Translations under genes and position numbers: made by a program
Source: Terriglobus albidus
GTDB taxonomy: Bacteria; Acidobacteriota; Terriglobia; Terriglobales; Acidobacteriaceae
Assembly (NCBI RefSeq): GCF_025685425.1
Contig: NZ_JAGTAS010000026.1
Span: 1-64,000, forward strand
DNA: 64,000 nucleotides
Reading direction: 5' to 3'
The notes under the pieces: model-generated
The model's database searches: none
Told to the model about the DNA's origin: nothing
Seen by the model: the letters and a program-made list of their open reading frames with translations, nothing else
Shown here: in pieces, positions 20,509-42,003 of the stretch
How positions within the stretch are numbered: the stretch's first letter is position 1
Layout of the letters: each line of letters opens with the position of its first letter

Positions 20509-22962
20509 CTAGATCTTGTTCACGCGCTGGACGTCGCGGACACCGTGGACACGGCGGAGATCGTTCACCAGTTTGTTCAGGTGTTTTAGGTCGACGGTCT
20601 CGACGACGAACTCTACGGTGGCGGTGCCATCGTCGTTCGAGCGTGACTCCACACTACGGATGTTGGTGTCGTCGTCGGAGATGATGGCAGTGAACTCCTT
20701 CAACATGCCGGTGCGGTCGTCGCAAGTGAGGATGAGTTTCACCGGATAAGTGGTTTGGCGGGCGTTTGCCGATGGAGTTGCCGACCACTCCACATTAATG
20801 CGCCGGTCGCTCTCGTAGAGCAGGTTCTGCACGTTCGGACAGCTTCGTGCGTGTACAGCCACGCCTTTACCGCGGGTGACATAGCCCACGATCTCTTCGC
20901 CGCGAATGGGATTACAACATCGTGCGCGGTAGACAAGCAGGTCGTCCTGGCCCTCCACCTGCAACGAGTCCGATCCTTTGCCGAAGAAGACGCGCTTCAC
21001 TGTCTCGGACATCTGCCCGGGCGTGGGAAGGGTTGGTCCCGTCTCGGTTTCAACCGGCATGGTGCTACCCGGCTCCAGCTTGTTAAGCACCTGGCGTGCT
21101 GAGAGCTTGCCGAAGCCGAGGCCGGCGTAGAGGTCTTCTCCATTGCCGAGACCGTACTCATTGGCAACGCGAGTGAAGTCGGCATCGGTCAGCTTGGTGA
21201 TGGCCACCTTGAACTTGCGGCCTTCGCGGTCGAGGAGCTTGCGTCCGATCTCGACGGCGCGCTCGCGCTGGTGCACGTTGATCCAGTGCTTGATCTTGTT
21301 GCGAGCGCGGGAGCTCTTGACGAAGCTCAGCCAGTCACGGCTGGGTGTGTGGCCGGTTTGGGTGGAGATCTCGACGATGTCGCCGTTGTGCAGTTTGGTG
21401 CGGAGAGGAACGATACGGCCGTTCACCCGGGCGGCGACGGCGGTGTTGCCGACGTCGGTGTGAATGGTATACGCGAAGTCGATCGGTGTGGCGTCCTTCG
21501 GGAGCACCACCACTTTGCCCTTGGGGGTAAAGGTGTAGACCTCCTCGGGGTACAGGTCGATCTTGAGCGTCGACATGAACTCGTTGGGGTCTGTCATCTC
21601 GCGCTGCCACTCCATGATCTGGCGCACCCAGGCGAGACGCTGTTCGTCCTTATCGGTGACGGACTCGTTGGCCTTGTACTTCCAGTGCGCCGCGATGCCT
21701 TCTTCGGCGATGCGGTGCATCTCCTCGGTCCGGATCTGCACCTCGAACTGGTGCCCGCCCTCGGCGATGAGGGTGGTATGCAGCGACTGGTACATATTCG
21801 GCCGCGGCATAGCGATGAAGTCCTTGATCCGGCCTGGGACAGGACGCCAGGTGGAGTGCAGCAGGCCGAGCATGGCGTAACACTCACCAACGGTTTGGGT
21901 GATGACCCGAACGGCCAGCAGGTCATAGACCTGGTTCAGCGGGAGCGTCCCATCCTGCAGCTTCTGCTGGATGGAGTAGAGACGCTTGATGCGGTACTCG
22001 ACACGGCCGTGGATGTGGTGTGAGGCGAGCTTTTCTTCCAGGATCTTAGCGATTCCCTGCAGGAAACGTTCGCCCTCGTCGCGGACCTGGTCGACCTCTT
22101 TCTCGACGTTCTGATAGGCGACGGGATCGACGTAGCGGAAGGCAAGGTCTTCGAGCTCGCCGCGAAGTTTACCCATGCCCAGGCGGTGGGCGAGGGGGGC
22201 GTAGACGTCGAGAGTCTCTCGGGCGATCTTCTGCTGTTTCTCGGGCCTCAGGTGCTCCAGCGTCCGCATGTTGTGCAGGCGATCGGCCAGCTTGATGAGC
22301 ACGACGCGAACGTCGGTGACCATGGCGAGAAGCATCTTGCGGATGTTTTCGGCCTGGTGGTCTTCGCGATTGGCGAACTTGATCTTGTCGAGCTTGGTGA
22401 CGCCCTCGACGATGTGGGCGACCTGATCGCTGAAGCGGGTCGAGATCTCGTCGGCGGTAACGTCGGTATCTTCCACGGCATCGTGGAGCAGGCCGGCGGC
22501 GATGGCCGTGGCGTCCAGCTTCATCTCCGCCAGCAACTGGGCGACCTCGAGCGGATGGATGACGTAGGGCTCGCCGGAGGCACGTTTCTGGTCGGCGTGG
22601 TTCTCCAGGCAGAAGATCCACGCCTTGCGGATGACCTCCAGGTCATCACCGGGGCGGTATGTCCGAACGGTTTCCAGCAGGTGAGCGAACTTTACATCAA
22701 TGCGCTGAGCCGAGGCGCTATCCAGCCAGGTCAGGTAGGGTGTGACGGACGTCGGTTTGATGGCCGGAGCTGAGGGTTTTTCCGCCAGAATGCCGCTGGG
22801 AGAAGCCAGAGAATCATGGACCGACGAATCTTCCGGAGCTTTAGGCACAGAGATTGACTGCTCCAGATCAACGCCGTTGGCGGCGGAGACTGCGCTGGAG
22901 GTGATCTCGGGAGGCGTCAATCCGGACCCAGCCTGCGTGGAAGCAGGCCGCGCGATAGCCAT
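20509..22962 (-). CDS. rel: Bifunctional (p)ppGpp synthetase/hydrolase
   Basis: An 817-residue Rel/SpoT enzyme that makes and degrades the alarmone (p)ppGpp. The hydrolase HD domain has HDAVED at residues 160-165. The synthetase domain has RIKDFIAMPRP with the RxKD form found in bifunctional enzymes (EFDD marks synthetase-only RelA), and MYQSLHTTLIAEGGHQFEVQ. A TGS domain (YTFTPKGKVVVLPKDATPID) and C-terminal ACT domain (KLILTCDDRTGMLKEFTAI) follow. I start at the ATG at 22962 (MAIARPASTQ); the upstream 27 residues come from the adjacent dispersed element and are probably not translated. A non-conserved N-terminal stretch of about 80 residues precedes the HD domain. Confidence 0.93.
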   Translation of the reverse strand: MAIARPASTQAGSGLTPPEITSSAVSAANGVDLEQSISVPKAPEDSSVHDSLASPSGILAEKPSAPAIKPTSVTPYLTWLDSASAQRIDVKFAHLLETVRTYRPGDDLEVIRKAWIFCLENHADQKRASGEPYVIHPLEVAQLLAEMKLDATAIAAGLLHDAVEDTDVTADEISTRFSDQVAHIVEGVTKLDKIKFANREDHQAENIRKMLLAMVTDVRVVLIKLADRLHNMRTLEHLRPEKQQKIARETLDVYAPLAHRLGMGKLRGELEDLAFRYVDPVAYQNVEKEVDQVRDEGERFLQGIAKILEEKLASHHIHGRVEYRIKRLYSIQQKLQDGTLPLNQVYDLLAVRVITQTVGECYAMLGLLHSTWRPVPGRIKDFIAMPRPNMYQSLHTTLIAEGGHQFEVQIRTEEMHRIAEEGIAAHWKYKANESVTDKDEQRLAWVRQIMEWQREMTDPNEFMSTLKIDLYPEEVYTFTPKGKVVVLPKDATPIDFAYTIHTDVGNTAVAARVNGRIVPLRTKLHNGDIVEISTQTGHTPSRDWLSFVKSSRARNKIKHWINVHQRERAVEIGRKLLDREGRKFKVAITKLTDADFTRVANEYGLGNGEDLYAGLGFGKLSARQVLNKLEPGSTMPVETETGPTLPTPGQMSETVKRVFFGKGSDSLQVEGQDDLLVYRARCCNPIRGEEIVGYVTRGKGVAVHARSCPNVQNLLYESDRRINVEWSATPSANARQTTYPVKLILTCDDRTGMLKEFTAIISDDDTNIRSVESRSNDDGTATVEFVVETVDLKHLNKLVNDLRRVHGVRDVQRVNKI

Positions 22963-22971
22963 ATCTGATTC

Positions 22972-23085
22972 TAGAGCGTTTTCCCTGTTGCGGGGTATCC
23001 CGGAATGGACGTGCGTGGCGTTTTCATCGCGGAAAACGCCCACCGATGCGGGAACCCTGGTCTATACCTGCAGGAAAACGCTCTA
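22972..23085 (+). repeat. Dispersed TA-flanked element A, copy 1
   Basis: 114 bp from TAGAGCGTTTTCCCTGTT to CAGGAAAACGCTCTA, with an internal stem of GGCGTTTTC and GAAAACGCC. The right terminal repeat has lost a base. It sits 9 bp upstream of the chosen rel start codon, so it lies within the rel leader or promoter region. Confidence 0.9.
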
Positions 23086-23102
23086 TCCCCTTAAAGAAAA
23101 GA

Positions 23103-23128
23103 GCGGAGAGCCGTTTCCGGCTCTCCGC
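23103..23128 (-). terminator. Intrinsic terminator after the TonB receptor gene
   Basis: GCGGAGAGCCG (23103-23113) and CGGCTCTCCGC (23118-23128) form an 11-bp stem with a TTTC loop. On the minus strand it is followed by TCTTTTCTTTAAG. It lies between two copies of element A. Confidence 0.85.
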
Positions 23129-23152
23129 AAGGTTGGTTACTCGTGCTTCGGT

Positions 23153-23268
23153 TAGAGCATTTTCCCTGTTTCTGGGTACCCCGAAAAAGGCGTGCAGCGG
23201 CGTTTTCATTGCGGAAAACGCCCATAGATGTGGATGCTCTGGACTACACCTACAGGGAAAATGCTCTA
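23153..23268 (+). repeat. Dispersed TA-flanked element A, copy 2
   Basis: 116 bp with perfect 15-bp terminal inverted repeats (GAGCATTTTCCCTGT and ACAGGGAAAATGCTC), each bordered outside by TA. The internal stem is GGCGTTTTC/GAAAACGCC. The right-end CTA (23266-23268) is the TAG stop codon of the minus-strand TonB receptor gene. Confidence 0.92.
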
Positions 23269-25860
23269 CTGTCGTGGAGACAGGCCGATGGTGAAGGAGA
23301 CCATATAGCTGCGTCCGGGCAGGAGGCCCAGGGTGTCTCCTGAGGCTGGCGCGAAAGCGTAGCCGGTACGGTTGAGCGGAACCGAACCCGACGGGTTCAC
23401 GCTGGTGATGTTGTGCTGGTCGAAGAGGTTGTTGACGCTGAAGCGGAGTTTGGTCTGATCAAAGATGGAGCCGCGGCGCACGGTGAAGTTCACGTACATG
23501 TTGGTGACGTTGAACGGATCGATCGGCACTGCCTGGTTGGCATTGGTGCCCAGGACCGGGTTCAGTTGCGGACCGGTCGTTGAAGTCGGAGCGGCGTATT
23601 TGCCGTCATTCCACATCGGGCCGATACGCTTGTTGAAGATACCGAGGTTCAGGTACTTGTCCTGGAAGGTCATACCCAGGCTCTCGGTATTGGACGGCGT
23701 ACTGGCGACCCAGAGGTCATAGTTGGGATTCGGCTTGCCGCCAACCGTATCACTGACGTACTTCGCGGAACCTGCCGTTCCGTTGGCAAAAAAGCTGATG
23801 CCTTTGCCGAAGTAGAGATTGGTCTCTCCCTCGAAGCCCTTCGTGACCGAGTCGCCCTGCGAGGTGTAGTTCACAAAATTCGGATCGCTGGGGGCCGAGT
23901 AGGCGTTGCCAAAGCGGACATAGTAGACATCGGCATTGAGCGTAACCCGGTGCAGCTTAAGGACCGAACCGGTCTGGTAGCTTTTGGCGTAGCTGGGATC
24001 GGGCAGCGTCTTGAGCACGGCGGCGGCGGAAGTGCTGGTCGAGGTCTGGTTGATGTCAAAGACGCTGCTCGGCGGAATCACGCTGCCGGTGGCGAACTGC
24101 CCATAAACCGACCAGTTGGGACGGATACGGTAGTTGGCGTCCACCGAGGGAAGCACGGAGTTATAGCTGGCGTTGTTCCGCACGTACGGAGCGCCGTTCA
24201 GATTGCCGACCGTGTTTCCGTTATCAGCGTATTGCTTCAGATCCATGGTGTAGTGCGCGAACTTCAGGCCGCCGGTGAGTGTGAGCTTACTGGTGGCGTG
24301 ATACTCGTATTCGGCATAGGGCTGGTAGGAGTTGGTCCAGAACTGCTCGTGGAAGTTAGGCAGCGGGCTGTCCGCCTGGGTAATGGGATCCTGTGGGATC
24401 TGGTAACGGTCGGTCGTTGCCCACTCGTACCACATACCTACCCGGAAGATGCCGAAGCGCGAGACCTGGCTCAGGCTGGTGATTTCACCGTATTTACGAT
24501 AGCTGTTCAGCTTATCAGTGCCGCAGGGCAGAGCTCCGCTGACAGGTGTGGAGCAGTTCGGTTCGCTGACCGTGCCCTTCTTCGGTGTAGCCGCGTAGTT
24601 CTGCTTGTTGTTGTAGCTGTAGGTATACGGTTTGGTATCGAGCGACCAGCCATGACCGAGCTGCTGCTTGTAGCCGACGTACTCGAAATCCGTAGGCACA
24701 TGGTAGAAGTTGTACTTGTAGTAGTTGGCCTGCGTCGGGTCAGTGTTCTGCAGCAGGAAGTTATCGCCGTACTGGGCTACCTGCGCGCGTGTGGGGCCCT
24801 TGATGTTGGGTGTGTTGGAGTCCAGCCAGAGTACGCTGGCAAAGCCCGTCAGAATCTTGTTCTCAGAGAACTTGAACTGGTACTTCAGAGCGCCGGCATT
24901 GCGTGTCTGGTAGTTGAAGGTCTGGTAGCCATCGGAGTCCATGTGGTGGACATCGATAAAGACGTTGTTCCGCTTCGATGCGCCGCCGAAGTTACCCGAG
25001 TCATAGTTCACGTCGATCAGCTTGGTATTGAACGAACCGTAGCTGATGCCGCCGCGGATGTTCTGGACGTCGGGCATCTCCTTGGAGAGCAGGTTGATCG
25101 AGCCGCCGAAGGGGGTGGGTCCGACGGTCGAGGCCGAACCCGGAGAGCGATCGAAATCTACGCCGCCGAGAAACTGCGATGGGAAGAAGGCCCAGGAGTG
25201 GTGCGAGGGCGAGTTGGTGTCGTTCCACGGAATGCCGTCGAAGGTGATGTCATAGTTGCCGTCCGAGAAGCCGCGGAAGAACATCTTCGCATCACCCAGA
25301 CCTACGCCATTCGCATTCAGGCTGTAGGTACCGGGTGCATTCTGCAGAACTTCGGTGTAATCGGCAGTCGGTGCGACGTAGTTCTGGATATAGGTGGAGT
25401 TGACCTCGGTGCGGGCACTGCGGGCATCAAGCACGCCATCCATCACGGCGTAGGCGGCAGCGATGGAATTAGCGTTGGCGGCATCCACGGTGATCTGCTC
25501 GTTGGCGCCGCCGACCTTCAGGGTCAGTGTGACGTCCTGCGTGTTGCTGGCGGTGAGCTGTACGCCCTGGCGCGTGGTGAGGGCAAAGCCTGGTGCGGAT
25601 GCTTCTACGGTATACGTTCCCGCGGGCAGGCCGCTGGCGTTGAAGTGGCCTTCCGCATCGCCGCGTATATTGCGGACAACCTTCGTCGTTTCATTGCGCA
25701 GCACGATGGTTGCGTTCGGAATGGACGCACCAATGGCGTCTTTCAGGTTTCCAGAGAGAGTTCCAGTCTGCTGCGCGATGGCAGGCAAACCAAGGGAAAC
25801 GGCGACAAGCGCCACAGCAAAGGCAGCGCGCGTACTGGCTAAGAGAGAATGTCGAAGCAC
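23266..25860 (-). CDS. TonB-dependent receptor with carboxypeptidase-regulatory domain
   Basis: An 864-residue outer-membrane receptor. The start is taken as the GTG at 25860 because AGGAGA lies 7 bases upstream and it begins a signal peptide (VLRHSLLASTRAAFAVALVA, ending AIAQQ). A carboxypeptidase-regulatory domain follows (LSGNLKDAIGASIPNATIVL). The plug domain contains YTEVLQNAPGTYSLNANGVG, FFRGFSDGNYDITFDGIPWN and TPFGGSINLLSKEMP. The rest is a 22-strand-type barrel ending in aromatic-rich SYMVSFTIGLSPRQ, which lacks a terminal Phe. It is 55 bases downstream of a PAP2 acid phosphatase gene on the same strand, suggesting uptake of a phosphate-bearing or phosphatase-released nutrient. Its stop codon is supplied by element A. 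Confidence 0.9.
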   Translation of the reverse strand: MLRHSLLASTRAAFAVALVAVSLGLPAIAQQTGTLSGNLKDAIGASIPNATIVLRNETTKVVRNIRGDAEGHFNASGLPAGTYTVEASAPGFALTTRQGVQLTASNTQDVTLTLKVGGANEQITVDAANANSIAAAYAVMDGVLDARSARTEVNSTYIQNYVAPTADYTEVLQNAPGTYSLNANGVGLGDAKMFFRGFSDGNYDITFDGIPWNDTNSPSHHSWAFFPSQFLGGVDFDRSPGSASTVGPTPFGGSINLLSKEMPDVQNIRGGISYGSFNTKLIDVNYDSGNFGGASKRNNVFIDVHHMDSDGYQTFNYQTRNAGALKYQFKFSENKILTGFASVLWLDSNTPNIKGPTRAQVAQYGDNFLLQNTDPTQANYYKYNFYHVPTDFEYVGYKQQLGHGWSLDTKPYTYSYNNKQNYAATPKKGTVSEPNCSTPVSGALPCGTDKLNSYRKYGEITSLSQVSRFGIFRVGMWYEWATTDRYQIPQDPITQADSPLPNFHEQFWTNSYQPYAEYEYHATSKLTLTGGLKFAHYTMDLKQYADNGNTVGNLNGAPYVRNNASYNSVLPSVDANYRIRPNWSVYGQFATGSVIPPSSVFDINQTSTSTSAAAVLKTLPDPSYAKSYQTGSVLKLHRVTLNADVYYVRFGNAYSAPSDPNFVNYTSQGDSVTKGFEGETNLYFGKGISFFANGTAGSAKYVSDTVGGKPNPNYDLWVASTPSNTESLGMTFQDKYLNLGIFNKRIGPMWNDGKYAAPTSTTGPQLNPVLGTNANQAVPIDPFNVTNMYVNFTVRRGSIFDQTKLRFSVNNLFDQHNITSVNPSGSVPLNRTGYAFAPASGDTLGLLPGRSYMVSFTIGLSPRQ

Positions 25861-25915
25861 GAGAGTATCTCCTGATTTTTTGTTGTTACTTGGGCCGGAA
25901 GGTGCAGGTGGAACA

Positions 25916-26644
25916 TTAGTGCGTGTTGCCTGAGGCGAGGCGCAGCTCCTCGCGTGCGGCGGCGAGGTCTGTCTGAAACTTCGGATTGGCAAGCATGTTG
26001 CCGAAGGCGACATAAGCGATACGGCGGCTGGCTTCGGTATCGGCGCGATAGTGAACGCCGCATACCAGTCGGTTGTGCGCATACTCATCAGCGCGCGCCA
26101 GAATGGCATCGCGCTTTTCGGGAACCAGCTCCGCGAGAGTGAGCGCCAGCATGTAGCCAGAGAGGGAATGGCCGCTCGGATAAGAGTTATGCACCTCGGT
26201 CAGTTTGCAGACCGGATGCAGCGTCTTATCGGACTGATAAGGACGCGGGCGCTGGAACAGCGTCTTCAGCTCTCCGCCCAGAAAAGATTGGTCGCCTTTG
26301 ACGTGGGTTGAAAGCTCCGCGATGAGCGGCAGCTTTGCCGCCGTGAACGACGGACCCATAACAGTGCGGAAGACGAAGATGTCCTCTTCCTCATCGTCCG
26401 CTTTGGCGGCTGCGGCCTGTGCCGGCGTCCGAGATGTTTCGATGCGATGGACTTCAGCGAGTTCGGCGCGAGTCTGTGGATCGTTATCCGACGGCGGCGC
26501 CGGAATCAGATCGGCAATGTGCAGCATCTGCGTGTTGACGTAGTAGGGGGTATGTTTCGCCGGTGCGGGTGCCGATTGCGCACCTCCGCCTGCCTCCAAA
26601 GACAGCAGAATTGCCAGAGAAGAGACCACTATTCTGTTGTTCAC
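25916..26644 (-). CDS. Secreted class A acid phosphatase (PAP2 family)
   Basis: A 242-residue exported phosphatase. Its N-terminus (MNNRIVVSSLAILLSLEAGG) is a signal peptide. The PAP2 signature residues are complete: K127-x6-R134-P135 in KTLFQRPRP, P156-S-G-H159 in NSYPSGHSLSGY, and R192-x5-H198-x3-D202 in NRLVCGVHYRAD. The SYPSGHS form is typical of class A non-specific acid phosphatases such as PhoN. It would release phosphate from organic esters in the periplasm. It heads a two-gene unit with the TonB receptor downstream. Confidence 0.93.
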   Translation of the reverse strand: MNNRIVVSSLAILLSLEAGGGAQSAPAPAKHTPYYVNTQMLHIADLIPAPPSDNDPQTRAELAEVHRIETSRTPAQAAAAKADDEEEDIFVFRTVMGPSFTAAKLPLIAELSTHVKGDQSFLGGELKTLFQRPRPYQSDKTLHPVCKLTEVHNSYPSGHSLSGYMLALTLAELVPEKRDAILARADEYAHNRLVCGVHYRADTEASRRIAYVAFGNMLANPKFQTDLAAAREELRLASGNTH

Positions 26645-26784
26645 AATGGGCTGAAAGTAGCCAAGAAATGTGAATAGCAGGTGTGCCGTTTATGAATGGA
26701 AGGTTGATTTGCCCTGCTTTGGCTTGATTTCTGTGGAACTTAAGTCTGGCTTAAGTTTGGCTGACAGAATCGGATGACAAATCT

Positions 26785-26899
26785 TAGAGCATTTTCCCTG
26801 TTGCCAGGTATTCCGGAGAGGAGTGCAGCGGCGTTTTCATTGCGGAAAACGCCCATAGATGCGGAACCCCTACACGACACCTACAGGGAAAATGTTCTA
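26785..26899 (+). repeat. Dispersed TA-flanked element A, copy 3
   Basis: 115 bp, from TAGAGCATTTTCCCTGTT to ACAGGGAAAATGTTCTA, with the right terminal repeat differing by one base from the left. The right-end CTA (26897-26899) is the stop codon of the secreted hydrolase gene on the minus strand. Confidence 0.92.
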
Positions 26900-28072
26900 A
26901 CGCAGCAGACCTGCCTGAGGGATCTTTTTCTGGTGGACCCACAGCAATAACTGATCGAAGGCGCGGCCGACTTCATCGGCATTCATGGTGCAGTGGCCCT
27001 CGCGATGAACGTAAGTTTGCACGTAGTTGTTGCCGAAGCCTGCCTCTTCCACCATGCGGCCGTACAGCGTCATGGGAGTTGCCGGTACAAGAGGATCAAA
27101 GACAGTGTGGAGCGCCAGCATGGGACGGGTGAGCTTTCCGGTTGGGGTATACCAGGTGGCGACCCATTTGCGCGCCTTGTCGTCGGCGGCGTAGCGGCGG
27201 ACGCCGTCGTTGAGGGCGTAATCGGTGTGAGGGTCTTCGCTGGAGCGGGTATAGATATAGTTGCGGTTCTCGAAAGGGTTGCCGCCGGCCTTCCTCTGGA
27301 AATCAGCCATCTGCCAGGTGATGTACATCATCAGATTGGCCACCTGCAGATCGGTGTGTTCGTAGGTGATGTCGCGCATACTTGCGGCGGCCGCGGGATT
27401 TGCCTTCAGGGCGGTGAGGATCTTCTGGCGAAGGCCGTCATTCTCAGTGAAGTTCTGCGGTGTCGGCACCAGCGGAGGGAAGATGCCGGGGAAGTAGTAG
27501 TCGAAAGCGGCGCGCCAGGCAAATCGCCGCGAGGCCCACTCGTAGGTAGGTTCCACGGCTCCGCAGAGATCGAGACCTGCGACGTACGGCTTGGGATTCA
27601 GCTCCAGAGTCATCATGGTGAGAGCTCCTCCCATGGAGCCGCCGGCGACGAAGGTCTCTTTCGGCTGACCGTACTTCTTGGTGAAGTACTTCCGCAGACG
27701 TTCGGTCTCAGGGTAGGCGGCCTGCAGGGCCCAGCCCGTCTGGGAGTAGCCACTCTGGATCACGGCGAAGCCACGTTGGAACATGGGTCTGGCCTGATCG
27801 TGCAGCTGCGCGTCAGAGCGGTAGTGAAATGACCGCTCGCTGTAGCCGTGGTAGAAGACGACCAGCGAGTGGTTCCAGTTTGCCGGAACATCGATGCGAT
27901 AGGCTGCATTGCCCATGGAACCGGTCTCAACGGTGCCGGCCGGGGTCTTCAGGATGTTCGGTGGCGTGCTCGGACCCTCTTCGGCCTCAGGGGGGCGCTG
28001 GGCAAATCCCGTGGTTATCAGCCAGAGGCTGGAGATGAGAAGCAAAGCAACTGGGCGCATGGGTGAAGCCAT
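26897..28072 (-). CDS. Secreted alpha/beta hydrolase (prolyl oligopeptidase-like)
   Basis: A 391-residue exported serine hydrolase. The ATG at 28072 or 28060 starts a signal peptide (MRPVALLLISSLWLITTGFA). The nucleophile elbow is AGGSMGGALTMM near residue 157. Asp is in HTVFDPLVPATP and His in VHREGHCTMNADEV, giving a complete Ser-Asp-His triad. The oxyanion region is LVVFYHGYSERS. The family includes prolyl oligopeptidase-like and polyester or feruloyl esterase-like enzymes, so the substrate is open. The frame extends upstream into an element A copy (adding a MGVFRNENAA peptide), which I treat as non-coding. Confidence 0.85.
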   Translation of the reverse strand: MASPMRPVALLLISSLWLITTGFAQRPPEAEEGPSTPPNILKTPAGTVETGSMGNAAYRIDVPANWNHSLVVFYHGYSERSFHYRSDAQLHDQARPMFQRGFAVIQSGYSQTGWALQAAYPETERLRKYFTKKYGQPKETFVAGGSMGGALTMMTLELNPKPYVAGLDLCGAVEPTYEWASRRFAWRAAFDYYFPGIFPPLVPTPQNFTENDGLRQKILTALKANPAAAASMRDITYEHTDLQVANLMMYITWQMADFQRKAGGNPFENRNYIYTRSSEDPHTDYALNDGVRRYAADDKARKWVATWYTPTGKLTRPMLALHTVFDPLVPATPMTLYGRMVEEAGFGNNYVQTYVHREGHCTMNADEVGRAFDQLLLWVHQKKIPQAGLLR

Positions 28073-28108
28073 TGTAAGTCGAAGAGACGTCGCGCGCTGC
28101 GCCAGGGT

Positions 28109-28223
28109 TAGAGCATTTTCCCTGTTTTGGGTATCCCGGAAGAGGAGTGTAGCGGCGTTTTCATTGCGGAAAACGCCCATAGATGCAGAAGCCCTATGTT
28201 ACACCTACAGGGAAAATGCTCTA
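28109..28223 (+). repeat. Dispersed TA-flanked element A, copy 4
   Basis: 115 bp with 15-bp terminal repeats GAGCATTTTCCCTGT and ACAGGGAAAATGCTC and the internal GGCGTTTTC stem. Its right-end CTA (28221-28223) is the TAG stop codon of the EAL gene. Its left end lies 36 bp upstream of the hydrolase start. Confidence 0.92.
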
Positions 28224-29846
28224 TCCCTTTTCCTGATGGTCCAGCAGGAAACCGGTCAGTTCCGGCAGGAACATCGGCCTGGCCAGCAGAAAGCCCTGGG
28301 CGGCATCGCAGCGCAGATGGCGCAGCAGGTCGAGCTGCTCGGGCAGTTCTACGCCCTCCGCTACGACCTTCAGGCCGAGTTGATGGGCCATGCGCAGGAT
28401 CGACTCTGCCAGCGCCGCGCTATCTTTATCCACCTGGATATCGGTGACGAAAGCGCGATCCATCTTGAGTTTGTCAATAGGGAAGCGTCGCAGATAGCTG
28501 AGGGAGGAATACCCGGTGCCGAAGTCATCGATGGCAGTGGCGATACCGTGCTGGCGCAGCAGACGGAGAGAGTATGCTGCTTTCTCCGGATCATCCATCA
28601 GGGAGCTTTCCGTGATCTCCAGCTCCAGGTTGCCGGGAGTGACCTGATACTTCTCCAGGGTGGAGACGATCATCTCCACGAGATTGTCCTGCTGAAACTG
28701 GCGGGGAGAGAGGTTGACGGCAAAACGTGGACTGTACTCGAGGGTGGAGCGCAGGTCGCTGAGCTCTCGACATGCCGTTTCCAGAACCCATTGGCTGAGA
28801 GGGACAATGACGCCCGTCTCCTCAGCGACAGGAATGAACTTCGCCGGAGAGATAAACTCACCGGTCGGCTTACGCCAGCGCAGAAGAGCTTCCATGCTGA
28901 CGACCTCGCCGGTCTGCAGGTCGAACTCAGGCTGGTAAGCCAGCAGGAACTCGTTACGCCCGAGTGCATGGCGCAGATCGTTTTCAAGCGCCAGCCGCTC
29001 CAGCAGGGCTTTGTCGACCTCGGGATTGAAGATGCGGAAGTCCCCTCGTCCCGCGGCTTTGGCGCGATCCAATGCGGTGTCGACCTTGCGGAGCAGCGTG
29101 GATACGTCGGTGCCATCGTCCGGATAGACGGCTACACCGATGCTGGAGGTGATGTGGATCTTATGGCTGCCGACGGTGAGCGGCTCCGAGACTGTGTGCA
29201 GGATCTTCCGGCAGATCGCGGAAAGAGCGCCTTCCTGCTCGATCTTCGGCAATACGGCCAGAAATTCATCGCTGCTGATGCGGGCGAGGGTTTCGCGTGG
29301 ACCGATGGCGGTACGCAGGCGCTGCGCTGTCTGTCGCAGGATCAGGTCACCCACCTCATGTCCGAGCGTATCGTTGACACCTTTGAAGCGATCCAGATCG
29401 ACCAGAGCTATGGCAAACCTTCCATCCGGGCCACAGCGACGGATGCTATTGCGGATGCTGATCTCCAGTTGTGACCGTGTCTGCAGGCCGGTCAGGGCAT
29501 CGATGCCGCTGGCAGACTTCCTGCTGGCTTGCTTATCCAGCAGCAGAGCGACATTGCCCACGGCGAGTCCGCAGCCTAACATGGCGACGATCAGCGAAAC
29601 CGCCAACATGATGTTCGGGTGCCGTACGCCGATACTGCCGGCGGGAGAGAAGGATGTCAGATGGTAGAGAGACCATATGGCGCAGGCAAGCAGGGCGCCG
29701 CCGATTGCAGCCAGAATCTGACGTCTCCGCGGAGTCAGATCGGCGCGCCGGGCGCTCACGCGTAGCAGCCAGCATGCGAACAGCAGCGGGGCGAGCACCA
29801 GACCAGCCCAAAGCAACATGATTGCTGTCGATCGGCTTTCAGGCAT
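28221..29846 (-). CDS. Membrane GGDEF-EAL protein, degenerate GGDEF
   Basis: A 541-residue protein with about three to four N-terminal transmembrane helices (for example TAIMLLWAGLVLAPLLFACW and IMLAVSLIVAMLGCGLAVG), followed by a GGDEF domain and an EAL domain. The GGDEF signature is SSDEF at residues 191-195, so cyclase activity is doubtful. The EAL domain keeps EALLRW near residue 319, FIPVAEETG, and DDFGTGYSSLSYL near residue 438, so c-di-GMP phosphodiesterase activity is likely. It diverges from an active-looking diguanylate cyclase gene, forming an opposing pair. The stop codon is the terminal TAG of an element A copy. Confidence 0.92.
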   Translation of the reverse strand: MPESRSTAIMLLWAGLVLAPLLFACWLLRVSARRADLTPRRRQILAAIGGALLACAIWSLYHLTSFSPAGSIGVRHPNIMLAVSLIVAMLGCGLAVGNVALLLDKQASRKSASGIDALTGLQTRSQLEISIRNSIRRCGPDGRFAIALVDLDRFKGVNDTLGHEVGDLILRQTAQRLRTAIGPRETLARISSDEFLAVLPKIEQEGALSAICRKILHTVSEPLTVGSHKIHITSSIGVAVYPDDGTDVSTLLRKVDTALDRAKAAGRGDFRIFNPEVDKALLERLALENDLRHALGRNEFLLAYQPEFDLQTGEVVSMEALLRWRKPTGEFISPAKFIPVAEETGVIVPLSQWVLETACRELSDLRSTLEYSPRFAVNLSPRQFQQDNLVEMIVSTLEKYQVTPGNLELEITESSLMDDPEKAAYSLRLLRQHGIATAIDDFGTGYSSLSYLRRFPIDKLKMDRAFVTDIQVDKDSAALAESILRMAHQLGLKVVAEGVELPEQLDLLRHLRCDAAQGFLLARPMFLPELTGFLLDHQEKG

Positions 29847-30162
29847 TCGGGCTCATCCCGTTTTTGATCTCCACATCAAAACTGCATTGGCACATTTGGA
29901 CCACGCGGCTAAGGCTCTGCAGGATACGGAAAGGCGACTGCCCACCAGATTAGACCGCCTTCCGGAAGATACTATCGGGCCGGCGGCTCTCATCATATGT
30001 TATTCCCGGATCAAGAGAACCTTGAGAACCAAAATGGGTTTCCCTGAAGCGGATTACCAAACTGGTACTGGAGTGAAGGACGCGTGCATTGCTACAATCT
30101 CGCTGTCCGCGATCCGCGTCCTCACCACCAGGCTAGTTTCTCTGAGTGTGGCCGCTCCTGCC
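29847..30162 (+). other. Divergent regulatory region between two c-di-GMP genes
   Basis: 316 bases between the EAL protein start and the chosen start of the diguanylate cyclase. An open frame runs through it, but it lacks a plausible start signal and its composition is unlike the cyclase domain. No clear palindromic operator was seen. It probably holds both promoters. Confidence 0.5.
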
Positions 30163-31347
30163 ATGAATACGTACAATCTCCTGCTGATCAACGCGCTTAC
30201 CATGCTGGTTTATGCCGCGGGGCTCTGCTCGCTGCACATCAGCTACCGGCGCGCGCGGGGCATCTGGTGGTTCATGATGTCGTGCGTGGCCGCGGGCGCC
30301 TCCAGCGCTTTGATTGCGGGACATGGTCTTTTTTCGAGGAATATCCATCTCGGTCTCAGCATGCTGCTGCTGCCGGTAAGCCTCTGGCTGCGCCATACGG
30401 GCTTTGCCGAGTTCCTGCATGTCAAAGCCCGTCATCTCTGGGCGAACGCCGCTCTGGTCGCGGTCTATGCAGGTTTTCTGACGTGGTTTGCCGTTCTGCG
30501 GAATGACCCGGCACATGGCTTTGAGTTGCTTTCGGTGGTTCTGGCCATTCAGACCGCTCTGAGTGTCGAAGTGCTGCTGCGGTTCGGTATCGAAGAAAAT
30601 CGTCTGCTGCGCATCATTGCCAGCATTGTGATCACGTTGGTAGCTGTCTTTCGGCTGCTGTGGCAGGTGGTTGAGATTCGTTCGAATGTCCTGGGAATCT
30701 CCGGCGAGTCCATCGCTCATGCGCAGTGGCCGGTCAATATGCTCTTCAATGCGGCGACGCTCTTCTGCTTCGTCGGTATCTTCGTTAGTCAGATGGGGCT
30801 GGATCTGCGGGAGATTGCCAGCACCGATGCGCTGACCGGAGCCCTGAACCGCCGTGCCCTGGAATCCCAGGCTGCACGAGAGATGGCCCGCTGCCGCCGC
30901 TACGGCTTCCCGCTGTCGGTCATCGTCATGGACCTGGATCACTTCAAGCTGCTGAACGATACTCACGGCCATAACGCCGGGGATGCGGCGCTGTGCCTGG
31001 TGGTGCGAGACCTGCAATCGGCGCTTCGCGGAACAGACCTGTTATGCCGCTCCGGCGGCGAAGAGTTCCTGATTCTGCTGCCGCATACGGACCATGCGAC
31101 TGCGTTGCACCTGGCCGAACGCCTGCGTAAGCGCATCTCGCAGATTGTGGTGCCGGTGGAAAGCAAGAAGGTCGGCGTTACCGCCAGCCTGGGCGTGGCT
31201 AGCTGGAATGGAGCTGCGGAAAGCTGGACGACGATGGTCAAGCGCGCCGATGCCGCTCTCTATCTGGCGAAGAACGCCGGACGGAACCGGGTTGTCACAG
31301 GGGAAGAGCAGTCTTCGTCTGCTGAGACCAGCACCCAGTTGGCATAG
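30163..31347 (+). CDS. Membrane diguanylate cyclase
   Basis: A 394-residue protein. I choose the ATG at 30163 because MNTYNLLLINALTMLVYAAG directly begins the first of about seven N-terminal transmembrane helices. The C-terminal GGDEF domain has an intact GGEEF at residues 298-302. The inhibitory I-site RGTD lies at 289-292, exactly five residues before it. The metal and substrate block VIVMDLDHFKLLNDTHGHNA is also present. It should make c-di-GMP with product inhibition. The stop codon TAG at 31345 is the first three bases of an element A copy; without the insertion the frame would continue 12 more codons. Confidence 0.92.
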   Translation: MNTYNLLLINALTMLVYAAGLCSLHISYRRARGIWWFMMSCVAAGASSALIAGHGLFSRNIHLGLSMLLLPVSLWLRHTGFAEFLHVKARHLWANAALVAVYAGFLTWFAVLRNDPAHGFELLSVVLAIQTALSVEVLLRFGIEENRLLRIIASIVITLVAVFRLLWQVVEIRSNVLGISGESIAHAQWPVNMLFNAATLFCFVGIFVSQMGLDLREIASTDALTGALNRRALESQAAREMARCRRYGFPLSVIVMDLDHFKLLNDTHGHNAGDAALCLVVRDLQSALRGTDLLCRSGGEEFLILLPHTDHATALHLAERLRKRISQIVVPVESKKVGVTASLGVASWNGAAESWTTMVKRADAALYLAKNAGRNRVVTGEEQSSSAETSTQLA

Positions 31348-31475
31348 AGCATTTTCCCTGTAGGTGTAGTCCAGAGCATCCACATCTATGGGCGTTTTCC
31401 GCAATGAAAACGCCGCTGTACGCCCCTTCCGGGGTACCCAGCAACAGGGAAACCAGCAACAGGGAAAACGCTCTA
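31345..31475 (-). repeat. Dispersed TA-flanked element A, copy 5 (inverted)
   Basis: 131 bp in the opposite orientation to copies 1-4, starting TAGAGCATTTTCCCTGTAGG and ending CAGGGAAAACGCTCTA. The extra length is a local duplication of about 15 bp (ACCAGCAACAGGGAA) near the right end. Its first three bases are the stop codon of the diguanylate cyclase gene. Confidence 0.9.
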
Positions 31476-31532
31476 CGTCATACATCCGTTTCTGGACCTG
31501 CCTCATCCATGATTTTGGGGGACTCCTGAGAG

Positions 31533-31766
31533 ATGAGGCGGCAAGCTGTGGCGTCCGAAGGCATCGCCTCGATCGGCTATGACGAGAGCCGGAACGAGCT
31601 GGAGATTGAGTTCCGTCAGGGCGGATCGGTATATCGATACTTTGAGGTACCGCCCGAGGAACACTTCGAATTCATGGCAGCCGAATCGAAGGGGACCTAT
31701 CTCAACCAGGTATTCAAGCTCAGGGAGCACCCGTATCTTGTGGTGCGAGATGGCCGCCGAACGTAG
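31533..31766 (+). CDS. KTSC domain protein
   Basis: A 77-residue small protein that matches the KTSC domain: IASIGYDESRNELEIEFRQG, then VYRYFEVPPEEHFEFMAAES and KGTYLNQVFK. KTSC domains occur alone or fused to lysyl-tRNA synthetase-like or nuclease proteins and may bind RNA, but no function is proven. There is no signal peptide. It sits between element A copy 5 and a toxin-antitoxin pair, 28 bases upstream of the palindromic operator. Confidence 0.85.
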   Translation: MRRQAVASEGIASIGYDESRNELEIEFRQGGSVYRYFEVPPEEHFEFMAAESKGTYLNQVFKLREHPYLVVRDGRRT

Positions 31767-36143: not shown

Positions 36144-36909
36144 GATGTACCTCCGTTGAGTGACGATCAATCGATCATTCACTTGGTAGTTGTGCGGCAA
36201 ATGCCGCACAAACCCTTGAGCATTTCCCGGTAGGTGCAGCCCCAGAGCATCCACATCCGGTGGGCGTTTTCCGCAATGAAAACGCCGCCCCACGTCGCTT
36301 CCGACATATTCAGCCAGAGGGAAAATGCCCTAATCCTCGCTGAAAGCGAAACCCGTCTCAGTTTCCCGGGGGACAACCTCCTGCGAGTCCACAGACAGGC
36401 CATCCGATCTGCGTTGACCTGAACGATTGAATGGGGAAGATCTGCCGCATCTTCATCTTCTATGAATAGGCGTTCGCAACGGGTCGCATCTAGAACGCGT
36501 GTTCATCTGCCTGATTAACAGCGATCGGCGGTCCATCCATTCGAGAACTTGCGACGCGGAAATTGGATTCGCAAATACTCTCAGGCGTTGCATCCATTGC
36601 GGATAAGAGCAGGAACCTTCATTGCTCAACGAAATAAAACATGGTCGCTCGTCTGGGAATCAGCATTCCTTCACCTCTGCCAAAAGTGTGCAATTGCTTG
36701 CACACTTGACAACGGACAGGTTTGTCCCCAATATCTTGAGGCTTTCCGGCGGCCAATTTCATGCCTCCCCCGCGAAAGCAGAAGTAAGTTCTCAGATGAA
36801 TGTCCGCATGCGTGCACCGCGCAGGGGCGAGATCGGCGATGCCGGGAACGGCCCTGTACAAGAACGGATTTCATCGCTGTTGATGGATCCGAGATTCCGG
36901 AGCAGAAAC
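36144..36909 (+). other. Long intergenic region with an element A copy
   Basis: 766 bases. It holds the diverged element A copy at 36216-36324 and a TGTGCGGCAAATGCCGCACA palindrome at 36191-36210. The remaining open frames on the plus strand look non-coding. No other feature is supported. Confidence 0.55.
36216..36324 (-). repeat. Dispersed TA-flanked element A, copy 6 (inverted, diverged)
   Basis: About 109 bp. Ends read TTGAGCATTTCCCGG and GGGAAAATGCCCTA, so both terminal repeats have changes. The internal GGCGTTTTC/GAAAACGCC stem is intact. This looks like the oldest of the near-complete copies. It starts 73 bp upstream of the DUF5818 gene start. Confidence 0.8.
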
Positions 36910-40810: not shown

Positions 40811-40926
40811 TAGAGCATTTTCCCTGTTGCCGGGTATTCCGGAAACTGCGTGCAGCGGCATTTTTATCGGGGAAAACGCCCATAGATGCGGAAGCTCTAC
40901 ACTACACCTATAGGGAAAATGCTCTA
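40811..40926 (+). repeat. Dispersed TA-flanked element A, copy 7
   Basis: 116 bp, TAGAGCATTTTCCCTGTT to ATAGGGAAAATGCTCTA. The inner stem is altered (GGCATTTTTATCGGGG with GAAAACGCC), unlike other copies. It occupies most of the 166-bp divergent region between the propeller gene and the histidine kinase operon. An apparent upstream extension of the kinase frame runs through it. Confidence 0.9.
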
Positions 40927-40947: not shown

Positions 40948-42003
40948 GTGAAGCGCCTCTCGATAGCCCGGGATCTCAGTCCGTTGCAAGCTGACCTGCT
41001 CGCAGTTGTGGCATGTGTCATCGCTTTGCCGCTTGCCTGGGAGCTGGATGCGCCTTCCTCCTGCCTGCTGCTTGCGGTTATGGTCAGCAGCCTCTATGGC
41101 GGCCGCCGTTCCGGATATATTTCGGTCGTGCTTGGGGCTGCGCTCTTTTATGTTTTCTTTCTTACGCCGCAGTTCAGTCTGTTTCACCAGCGGGGAGAGT
41201 TTCTGCGCCTGCTTGTATTCATCGTGGCCATGGTGCTGGCAACAGAGCTGATTGCGGCGAGGCATCGTGCTGAGGAGTCGCTTCGTCAGACTCAGACCAA
41301 ACTCGCACAGGCGACACAGACGGCCACGATAGCCGAGTTCTCCGCCTCAGTGGTTCATGAAATCAGCCAGCCGCTCAGCGCGGTCGTGGCACATGGGCAA
41401 GCCAGCTTGCGGTGGCTGCAGGCCGATCCTCCGGATTTCGTAAACGCTCAGGCTTCAGTCGAACGCATCGTTCGAGACAGTAAAGACGCCGTCGGTATCA
41501 TTAAGGGCCTGCGGACGCTCTTCCGCAGATCGCCGCTGCAGAAGATCCCTATCGATCTGCGGCCCGTCGTCAGCGAGGTCATCTCGCTGGTGCGTAGCCG
41601 TGCGGAGAAAGACGGAATCCTTGTCGAGGTACAGCTCGCGAAAGATCTGCCATTGATCTTTGCCGATCGTATTCAACTGCAGCAGGTGCTCATGAACCTG
41701 GTATTGAATGGCATCGAATCCATGCGGGATGTCACCAGGCGGCCAAAGTCATTGACGATCCATTCGCGAGAGCAGGATGGCATGCTGTTGGTGGAGGTTC
41801 GGGATCAAGGGATCGGCGTCCAGAACTTCGACAAGGTCTTTGAGACCTTCTTCACCACGAAAGAAAACGGAATGGGGATGGGTCTCTCCGTCTGCCGCTC
41901 GATCATTGAGGCTCACGACGGTCGTCTGTGGGGAACGCCGGGACCAATTGTCGGAACGGTCTTCAGCTTTACCATTCCGGTTTTTCGGGAGCAGGTTGGA
42001 TGA
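40948..42003 (+). CDS. Sensor histidine kinase (DUF4118/FixL-type)
   Basis: A 351-residue membrane kinase. The start is set at the GTG at 40948, after the element A copy; the true start is uncertain because no well-spaced ribosome binding site is seen. Residues about 10-105 hold three to four transmembrane helices of the KdpD/DUF4118 type (LLAVVACVIALPLAWELDAP, SGYISVVLGAALFYVFFL). The HisKA phosphoacceptor His is in SASVVHEISQPLSAV near residue 137. HATPase motifs are VLMNLVLNGIESM (N box), VRDQGIGV (G1) and FFTTKENGMGMGLSVCR (G2). It overlaps the response regulator by four bases and likely controls the RND pump downstream. Confidence 0.88.
   Translation: MKRLSIARDLSPLQADLLAVVACVIALPLAWELDAPSSCLLLAVMVSSLYGGRRSGYISVVLGAALFYVFFLTPQFSLFHQRGEFLRLLVFIVAMVLATELIAARHRAEESLRQTQTKLAQATQTATIAEFSASVVHEISQPLSAVVAHGQASLRWLQADPPDFVNAQASVERIVRDSKDAVGIIKGLRTLFRRSPLQKIPIDLRPVVSEVISLVRSRAEKDGILVEVQLAKDLPLIFADRIQLQQVLMNLVLNGIESMRDVTRRPKSLTIHSREQDGMLLVEVRDQGIGVQNFDKVFETFFTTKENGMGMGLSVCRSIIEAHDGRLWGTPGPIVGTVFSFTIPVFREQVG

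Follow-up and report, generated by a model that had tools for sequence, protein, structure and literature searches.

The window analysed here, 64,000 nucleotides of Terriglobus albidus (contig NZ_JAGTAS010000026.1), contains four genes whose stop codons coincide with the end of a short repeated element (Table 1). The preliminary description of this DNA had proposed that the terminal TAG of the element, or CTA on the other strand, is the stop codon of a TonB-dependent receptor, a secreted hydrolase, an EAL protein and a diguanylate cyclase, and this observation is real: it is confirmed at 23266, 26897 and 28221 on the minus strand and at 31347 on the plus strand. The four copies concerned, starting at 23153, 26785, 28109 and 31345, are closely similar, and three further copies lie off stop codons. 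When the last of these, at 40811, is removed, the gene caller extends the neighbouring gene across the site. The terminator-like hairpin that lies downstream of the TonB receptor gene is now separated from the stop codon by the first of the four copies; it is a consensus match only, six such hairpins being found against 6.7 expected in shuffled sequence. An Rfam search of positions 22900-31600 gave no match.

Table 1. Element copies, associated genes and a neighbouring hairpin in the window.
Feature	Coordinates	Strand	Remarks
Element copy, more diverged	22972..23085	+	intergenic, off-stop; empty site TTC-TA-TCC in relatives
Terminator-like hairpin with T tail	23103..23128	-	downstream of TonB stop, beyond inserted element
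Element copy, 116 bp	23153..23268	+	3' end is the TonB-dependent receptor stop
TonB-dependent receptor	23266..25815	-	PF00593, PF07715; stop TAG 23268-23266 is element end
Element copy, 115 bp	26785..26899	+	3' end is the stop of the alpha/beta-hydrolase-like protein
Alpha/beta-hydrolase-like protein	26897..28045	-	PF00326 and PF19878 slightly above cut-off; stop TAG is element end
Element copy, 115 bp	28109..28223	+	3' end is the stop of the GGDEF-EAL protein
GGDEF-EAL protein	28221..29846	-	PF00563, PF00990; stop TAG is element end
GGDEF diguanylate cyclase	30073..31347	+	PF00990; stop TAG 31345-31347 is element start
Element copy, 131 bp	31345..31475	-	15 bp internal addition; end is the diguanylate cyclase stop
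Element copy, degenerate	36216..36332	-	intergenic, not on stop
Element copy, 116 bp	40811..40926	+	precedes gene called at 40948-42003; not on stop

The element is non-coding. Aligned in a common orientation, 177 copies with lengths of 105-125 bp, drawn from the two sampled genomes, T. albidus and a second species, G001, give a consensus of 116 bp. Its 17 bp inverted ends (TAGAGCATTTTCCCTGT) match each other perfectly in the consensus, a central hairpin (GGCGTTTTC-ATTGCG-GAAAACGCC) lies between them, and the copies agree with this consensus at a median identity of 0.89. Searching the entire T. albidus genome with the end pattern, up to two mismatches being allowed, returned 291 forward and 293 reverse end matches, and the reversed control pattern returned zero in the same search. 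Judged on its small size, its 17 bp terminal inverted repeats and its TA target duplication, which is recognisable through empty sites in relatives, the element, with 114 matches in 1.264 Mb, behaves as a MITE-like element. A second subfamily, with the ends TAGAGCAATTCT, keeps the TAGAGC core and has a different inner arm (L047:14603, L047:17553, L017:10183 and L020:17122), and the ends TAGAGCAAATTT are also present in another genus. Copies also occur in head-to-tail arrays with shortened junctions, four at L037:8693-9137 and three at L038:7173-7515, and the site orthologous to the L038 array is empty in G001. A 49 bp copy with an internal deletion at L215:8305-8353, absent from the profile-search list, supplies the stop TAG of its gene too, and at L221:12206-12557 a truncated element adjoins more palindromic sequence of no identified kind. 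Five of 19 genomes of the same genus, that of T. albidus included, have element matches and 14 have none; with 40 candidates scored per genome, three of the other genomes have 40 to 42 matches each and one has two. In a family-wide draw with at most four candidates scored per genome, 13 of 200 genomes match, T. albidus and G001 included, several of them via end fragments alone.

How do the same genes end where the element is absent? Orthologous flanks in G001 and other relatives include sites with and without the element, and many differ by the element plus one TA. Both flanks could be placed for 19 of the 100 sites of T. albidus and 16 of the 83 sites of G001, some sites with changed flanks being unreadable; in the window, the closely spaced sites at 22972 and 23153 correspond to a single region of the relative. 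At the TonB receptor site, the stop without the element is TAA in six close loci (L063, L064, L143, L144, L145 and L151), of which L144 and L151 are both G001 and the others may also include one genome counted twice, and in three distant loci (L146-L148) the protein has the same last residue followed by TAG, TAA and TAA. The hydrolase site is empty with TAG in G001 (L144 and L151) and occupied in L063, L064, L143 and L145, at the EAL site G001 (L151) has TAA and no element while L063 and L064 carry a copy, and the cyclase site is empty with TAG in L151, L063 and L064. The end residue is the same in 9/9 relative loci for the TonB receptor, all nine lacking the element there, 6/6 for the hydrolase, 3/3 for the EAL protein and 3/3 for the cyclase. 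Where at least one member of a reciprocal-best protein pair has the element at its stop, the ends are alike in 13/13 pairs, compared with 171/185 control pairs without elements. In four of the 13 pairs both species have the element, shared by descent, and in nine it is at the stop of one species only, at least two of the nine having a nearby copy in the other species. At L003:13289 and L185:5390 the G001 copy is on the stop and the T. albidus copy lies a few bases off, between short direct repeats; this is perhaps a single insertion with a rearranged flank.

Removal of the element and one TA in silico leaves TAA for the TonB receptor, hydrolase and EAL genes and TAC for the cyclase gene, where the base following the element differs from that of relatives; at the hydrolase site it is the left flank that is altered in the window. 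The earlier statement that removal restores TAA in the first three genes is therefore true of the window sequence and of the TonB and EAL orthologues, but the hydrolase has TAG in relatives. Insertion into the TA of existing stops stands, but the target is TAA or TAG rather than TAA alone, the hydrolase and the cyclase both having TAG in relatives. The expectation that TAG would be regenerated and the protein preserved is borne out for all four window genes, whose stops stand at the same place in orthologues lacking the element, and the 13 protein pairs all end alike. Orthologues ending at another codon, which the preliminary description had named as a refutation, were thus not what the four genes showed.

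The genome-wide enrichment at stops that the preliminary description anticipated is also found. Our T. albidus sample consists of the window and 60 stretches of 20 kb (1.264 Mb), in which the 114 matches, after seven had been dropped for poor ends or length and tandem copies had been merged, gave 100 insertion sites. With genes called computationally, without curation, on sequence from which the elements had been removed, 36 sites are on stops, 45 intergenic, 11 in coding sequence and eight at stretch edges; the cyclase site of the window falls among the 11, its stop being hidden by the changed base. Exactly on a TAA or TAG stop are thus 36 of the 92 classifiable sites, and 36 of the 81 non-coding sites where 9.4% would be expected (binomial p 1.7e-16). 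With tetranucleotide matching, the 36 observed compare with 12.1 of 77 expected, and the maximum of 200000 simulations was 28. In G001, 80 stretches (1.6 Mb) gave 89 elements at 83 sites (27 stop, 38 intergenic, 10 coding and eight edge), 27 of 65 non-coding sites being on a stop; tetranucleotide matching gives 27/63 observed against 9.2 expected, with a simulation maximum of 23. The same stop habit is seen in loci of another genus, where 30 loci from three genomes held 32 matches and 30 usable sites, which divide into 16 stop, 13 intergenic and one edge (16/29 non-edge); these loci were picked by match rank, so that they lack a proper background for comparison.

Expressed per TA and pooled over the two sampled genomes, insertion has occurred at 63/1402 stop, 77/13432 intergenic and 19/57045 coding TAs (the 159 non-edge sites, out of 167, whose TA is intact), which makes it about 17 times rarer within genes than between them. 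In the first 50 bp past the stop, 24/2436 TAs are used (sum of three bins, pooled). The result is stable to gene-call thresholds of 4, 8 and 20, with the stop share of non-coding sites at 0.37-0.44 against a background of 0.07-0.10. Trained and run on a single 50 kb stretch of E. coli, the gene caller placed 31/31 stops correctly with none false and missed 17/48 annotated stops; it would be expected to perform better with the more than 1 Mb of training sequence used here. Some 'intergenic' TAs may therefore sit in genes that it missed, with the effect of depressing the apparent intergenic rate and inflating the contrast.

The target is TA with a preference for CTAG/YTAR, CTAG serving as target at 10 times the frequency that all TAs together would predict (62 copies with both TAs intact). 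This preference, absent from the preliminary description, explains part of the pattern. Neutrality alone, which had been suggested as a possible reason for the spread, predicts equal use of harmless TAs just downstream, yet stops are used about three times more than these after matching for target sequence and gap, so neutrality is not the whole story. With stratification for YTAR and for the type and size of the gap, stop TAs exceed gap TAs with an odds ratio of 3.3 (p 6e-8), 3.4 in gaps over 100 bp and 3.2 in gaps up to 100 bp. A regression on the six flanking bases to either side, the size and type of the gap, GC and genome, leaving out the G001 member of four shared stop sites, gives 2.8 (bootstrap 95% 1.5-5.0, p 3.7e-5). 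In co-directional gaps over 100 bp, 11/373 stop TAs are used, compared with 6/903 TAs of the first 50 bp (p 0.002); convergent gaps of that size, taken alone, give 6/304 and 4/739, a difference that is not significant (p 0.07). The stop rate peaks before short gaps of up to 30 bp (15/176 co-directional, 7/68 convergent). Cytosines at -1 and -3 are what mainly sets inserted stops apart from other stops, and both fall under the general target preference. Age was rejected as a cause, the bit score showing no difference between stop and intergenic copies (p 0.96 and 0.63). Sequence target preference and neutrality account for much of the pattern and not the whole, and an approximately 3-fold stop excess remains. 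Any one of the following would account for it: a more finely tuned choice of target, damage done by insertions in 3' regions too, or a use for the stop hairpin.

We favor, as the best explanation and with a probability of about 0.75, a MITE-like element that accumulates at stops because they are both a good and a safe target. The element inserts with TA duplication and a target preference, leaves protein ends unchanged and is enriched at stops in two species; the earlier interpretation is partly supported. A non-autonomous element of about 116 bp would insert by TA duplication, preferably at CTAG/YTAR. GAG comes first at both element ends, and since the first base inside the duplicated TA is then G on either side, it follows from the sequence that a TAA or a TAG becomes TAG on either strand and in either orientation, with the protein exactly preserved and the sequence past the stop intact. 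Insertions within genes would be eliminated by selection, as the 17-fold lower rate per TA suggests. Stops would provide a YTAR core at the edge of a gene, and copies would accumulate there through neutrality at the stop and purifying selection elsewhere. It is a tentative extension, and in our view a doubtful one, that the family is adapted to stops, with TA-GAG ends that rebuild TAG both ways and a bias for stops themselves making up a genome-wide safe harbour.

Which enzyme would move such an element? From its target habits we infer a DDE transposase, IS630-like. The IS630/Tc1-mariner member ISY100 is reported to duplicate TA on insertion, and a CTAG preference of IS630 is given by the title of Tenzen and Ohtsubo 1991, as listed in PMC2170065; the present element shares both the TA duplication and the CTAG preference, but none of the IS630 loci examined bears its ends. 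No transposase bearing these ends turned up across the loci and families examined, about a fifth of the genome having been scanned base by base. Neither PF01609 nor PF13340 has a match in T. albidus, and PF13358 has seven in four of seven genomes (two in T. albidus, five in three of six relatives), at which the best resemblance to the ends has 4 or 5 mismatches and never comes as an end pair. The T. albidus genome thus has few transposases of these three families (0, 0 and 2) beside hundreds of element copies, and an IS630 source element may since have been lost from these genomes. Three wide inverted end-like pairs (L177, L215 and L221) were discarded as candidates, there being by eye no recognisable transposase in the listed ORFs; the L177 pair spans an oxidoreductase-like and a quinoprotein-like ORF (by eye).

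The residual excess could also mean that the insertion machinery favors stops beyond the YTAR core, through a longer motif or the local state of DNA at gene ends. This would agree with the persistence of the enrichment after control for sequence, gap and GC, with the difference in co-directional gaps over 100 bp and with the absence of an age trend in bit score. However, the residual is modest, the cytosines at -1 and -3 of inserted stops fit the general target preference, and convergent gaps over 100 bp alone show no significant difference; we think such a bias unlikely. Are the copies at stops instead kept for a function, with a transcript hairpin that starts at the stop codon acting as a processing or stability signal? 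The four window copies fold with z-scores of -5.6 to -9.1, and pairs counted on the consensus fold covary, the terminal arms showing 134 two-sided changes where 40 were expected and the central hairpin 20 where 2.5 were expected, but arm covariation would also be expected if transposition needs matching ends, and the counts are inflated by subfamily descent. Single copies at stops run against the direction of the gene in 41 of 61 cases (23 and 18, compared with 12 and 8; p 0.010), while intergenic co-directional copies split evenly, 24 to 24, and more copies are found at stops preceding short gaps. The orientation bias weakens to 37/57 (p 0.03) when four shared sites are allowed for, it was weaker with an earlier element model (37/61), and in-gene copies lean the opposite way, 14/21 having the orientation of the gene. 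With conservation of stop copies not visibly better than that of others and orthologous stops often empty, retention for a function seems quite improbable.

Alternatively, the element could be of the REP/REPIN type and owe its mobility to a Y1 tyrosine transposase (RAYT or TIRYT), with no TA-duplicating DDE enzyme involved. GTAG REPs and REPINs are, like the present element, short palindromic repeats at gene 3' ends, with a terminal TAG that often acts as a stop codon, according to one sentence in PMC3733652, which also places TIR-flanked tyrosine transposases in Acidobacteria; the T. albidus genome has 10 matches to PF01797 (Y1). But only 2/10 of these loci have an element copy within about 1.5 kb, where element density would give about three, and with eight of ten copy-free the element does not regularly flank such genes as REPs flank RAYT genes. 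Unlike REPs and REPINs, the element is 116 bp long, has 17 bp terminal arms, duplicates TA and does not end in GTAG, the base preceding TAG being that of the host and varying by site, and its symmetric target preference and symmetric ends would suit a DDE enzyme. We consider a tyrosine transposase a rather remote prospect. That chance or gene calling produced the pattern, the end of the element truncating genes, is scarcely credible: the gene calls are computed and uncurated, but orthologues without the element share the end residue, which contradicts an artefact for all four window genes.

The TA-duplicating bacterial MITEs Correia/NEMIS, RUP and ERIC resemble the present element in being about 100-150 bp long with inverted ends, a terminal TA, high copy number and mostly intergenic locations (PMC2229807). 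A stop-codon preference of these elements is not described in the literature searched, and the term 'stop codon' is absent from the review PMC10969869. By eye, an ERIC copy of E. coli is apparently bounded by TATACTC/GAGTATA, with T after TA, so that a stop would be lost, and one RU-1 (ERIC) insertion is said, in PMC2759123, to have eliminated the stop of its gene. No description of a MITE enriched at stop codons was found in the literature searched, in which subscription journals are thinly covered, and the nearest precedent found for the stop-codon habit is the GTAG REP remark in PMC3733652. The present element is a measured case of a bacterial mobile repeat that favors the stop codon as its landing place and leaves the protein unchanged to the residue. 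If the proposed mechanism is true, it would provide a simple sequence rule for stop-colonising elements that could be tested in any genome: a TA-inserting element can settle on stops when its first base is G or A, and a first base of C or T prevents this. It would also show one harmless route by which an element can reach hundreds of copies in a genome densely packed with genes. In the two sampled genomes about 1 in 22 TAA or TAG stops carries a copy, so the element has to be taken into account when these bacteria are annotated or their 3' ends studied.
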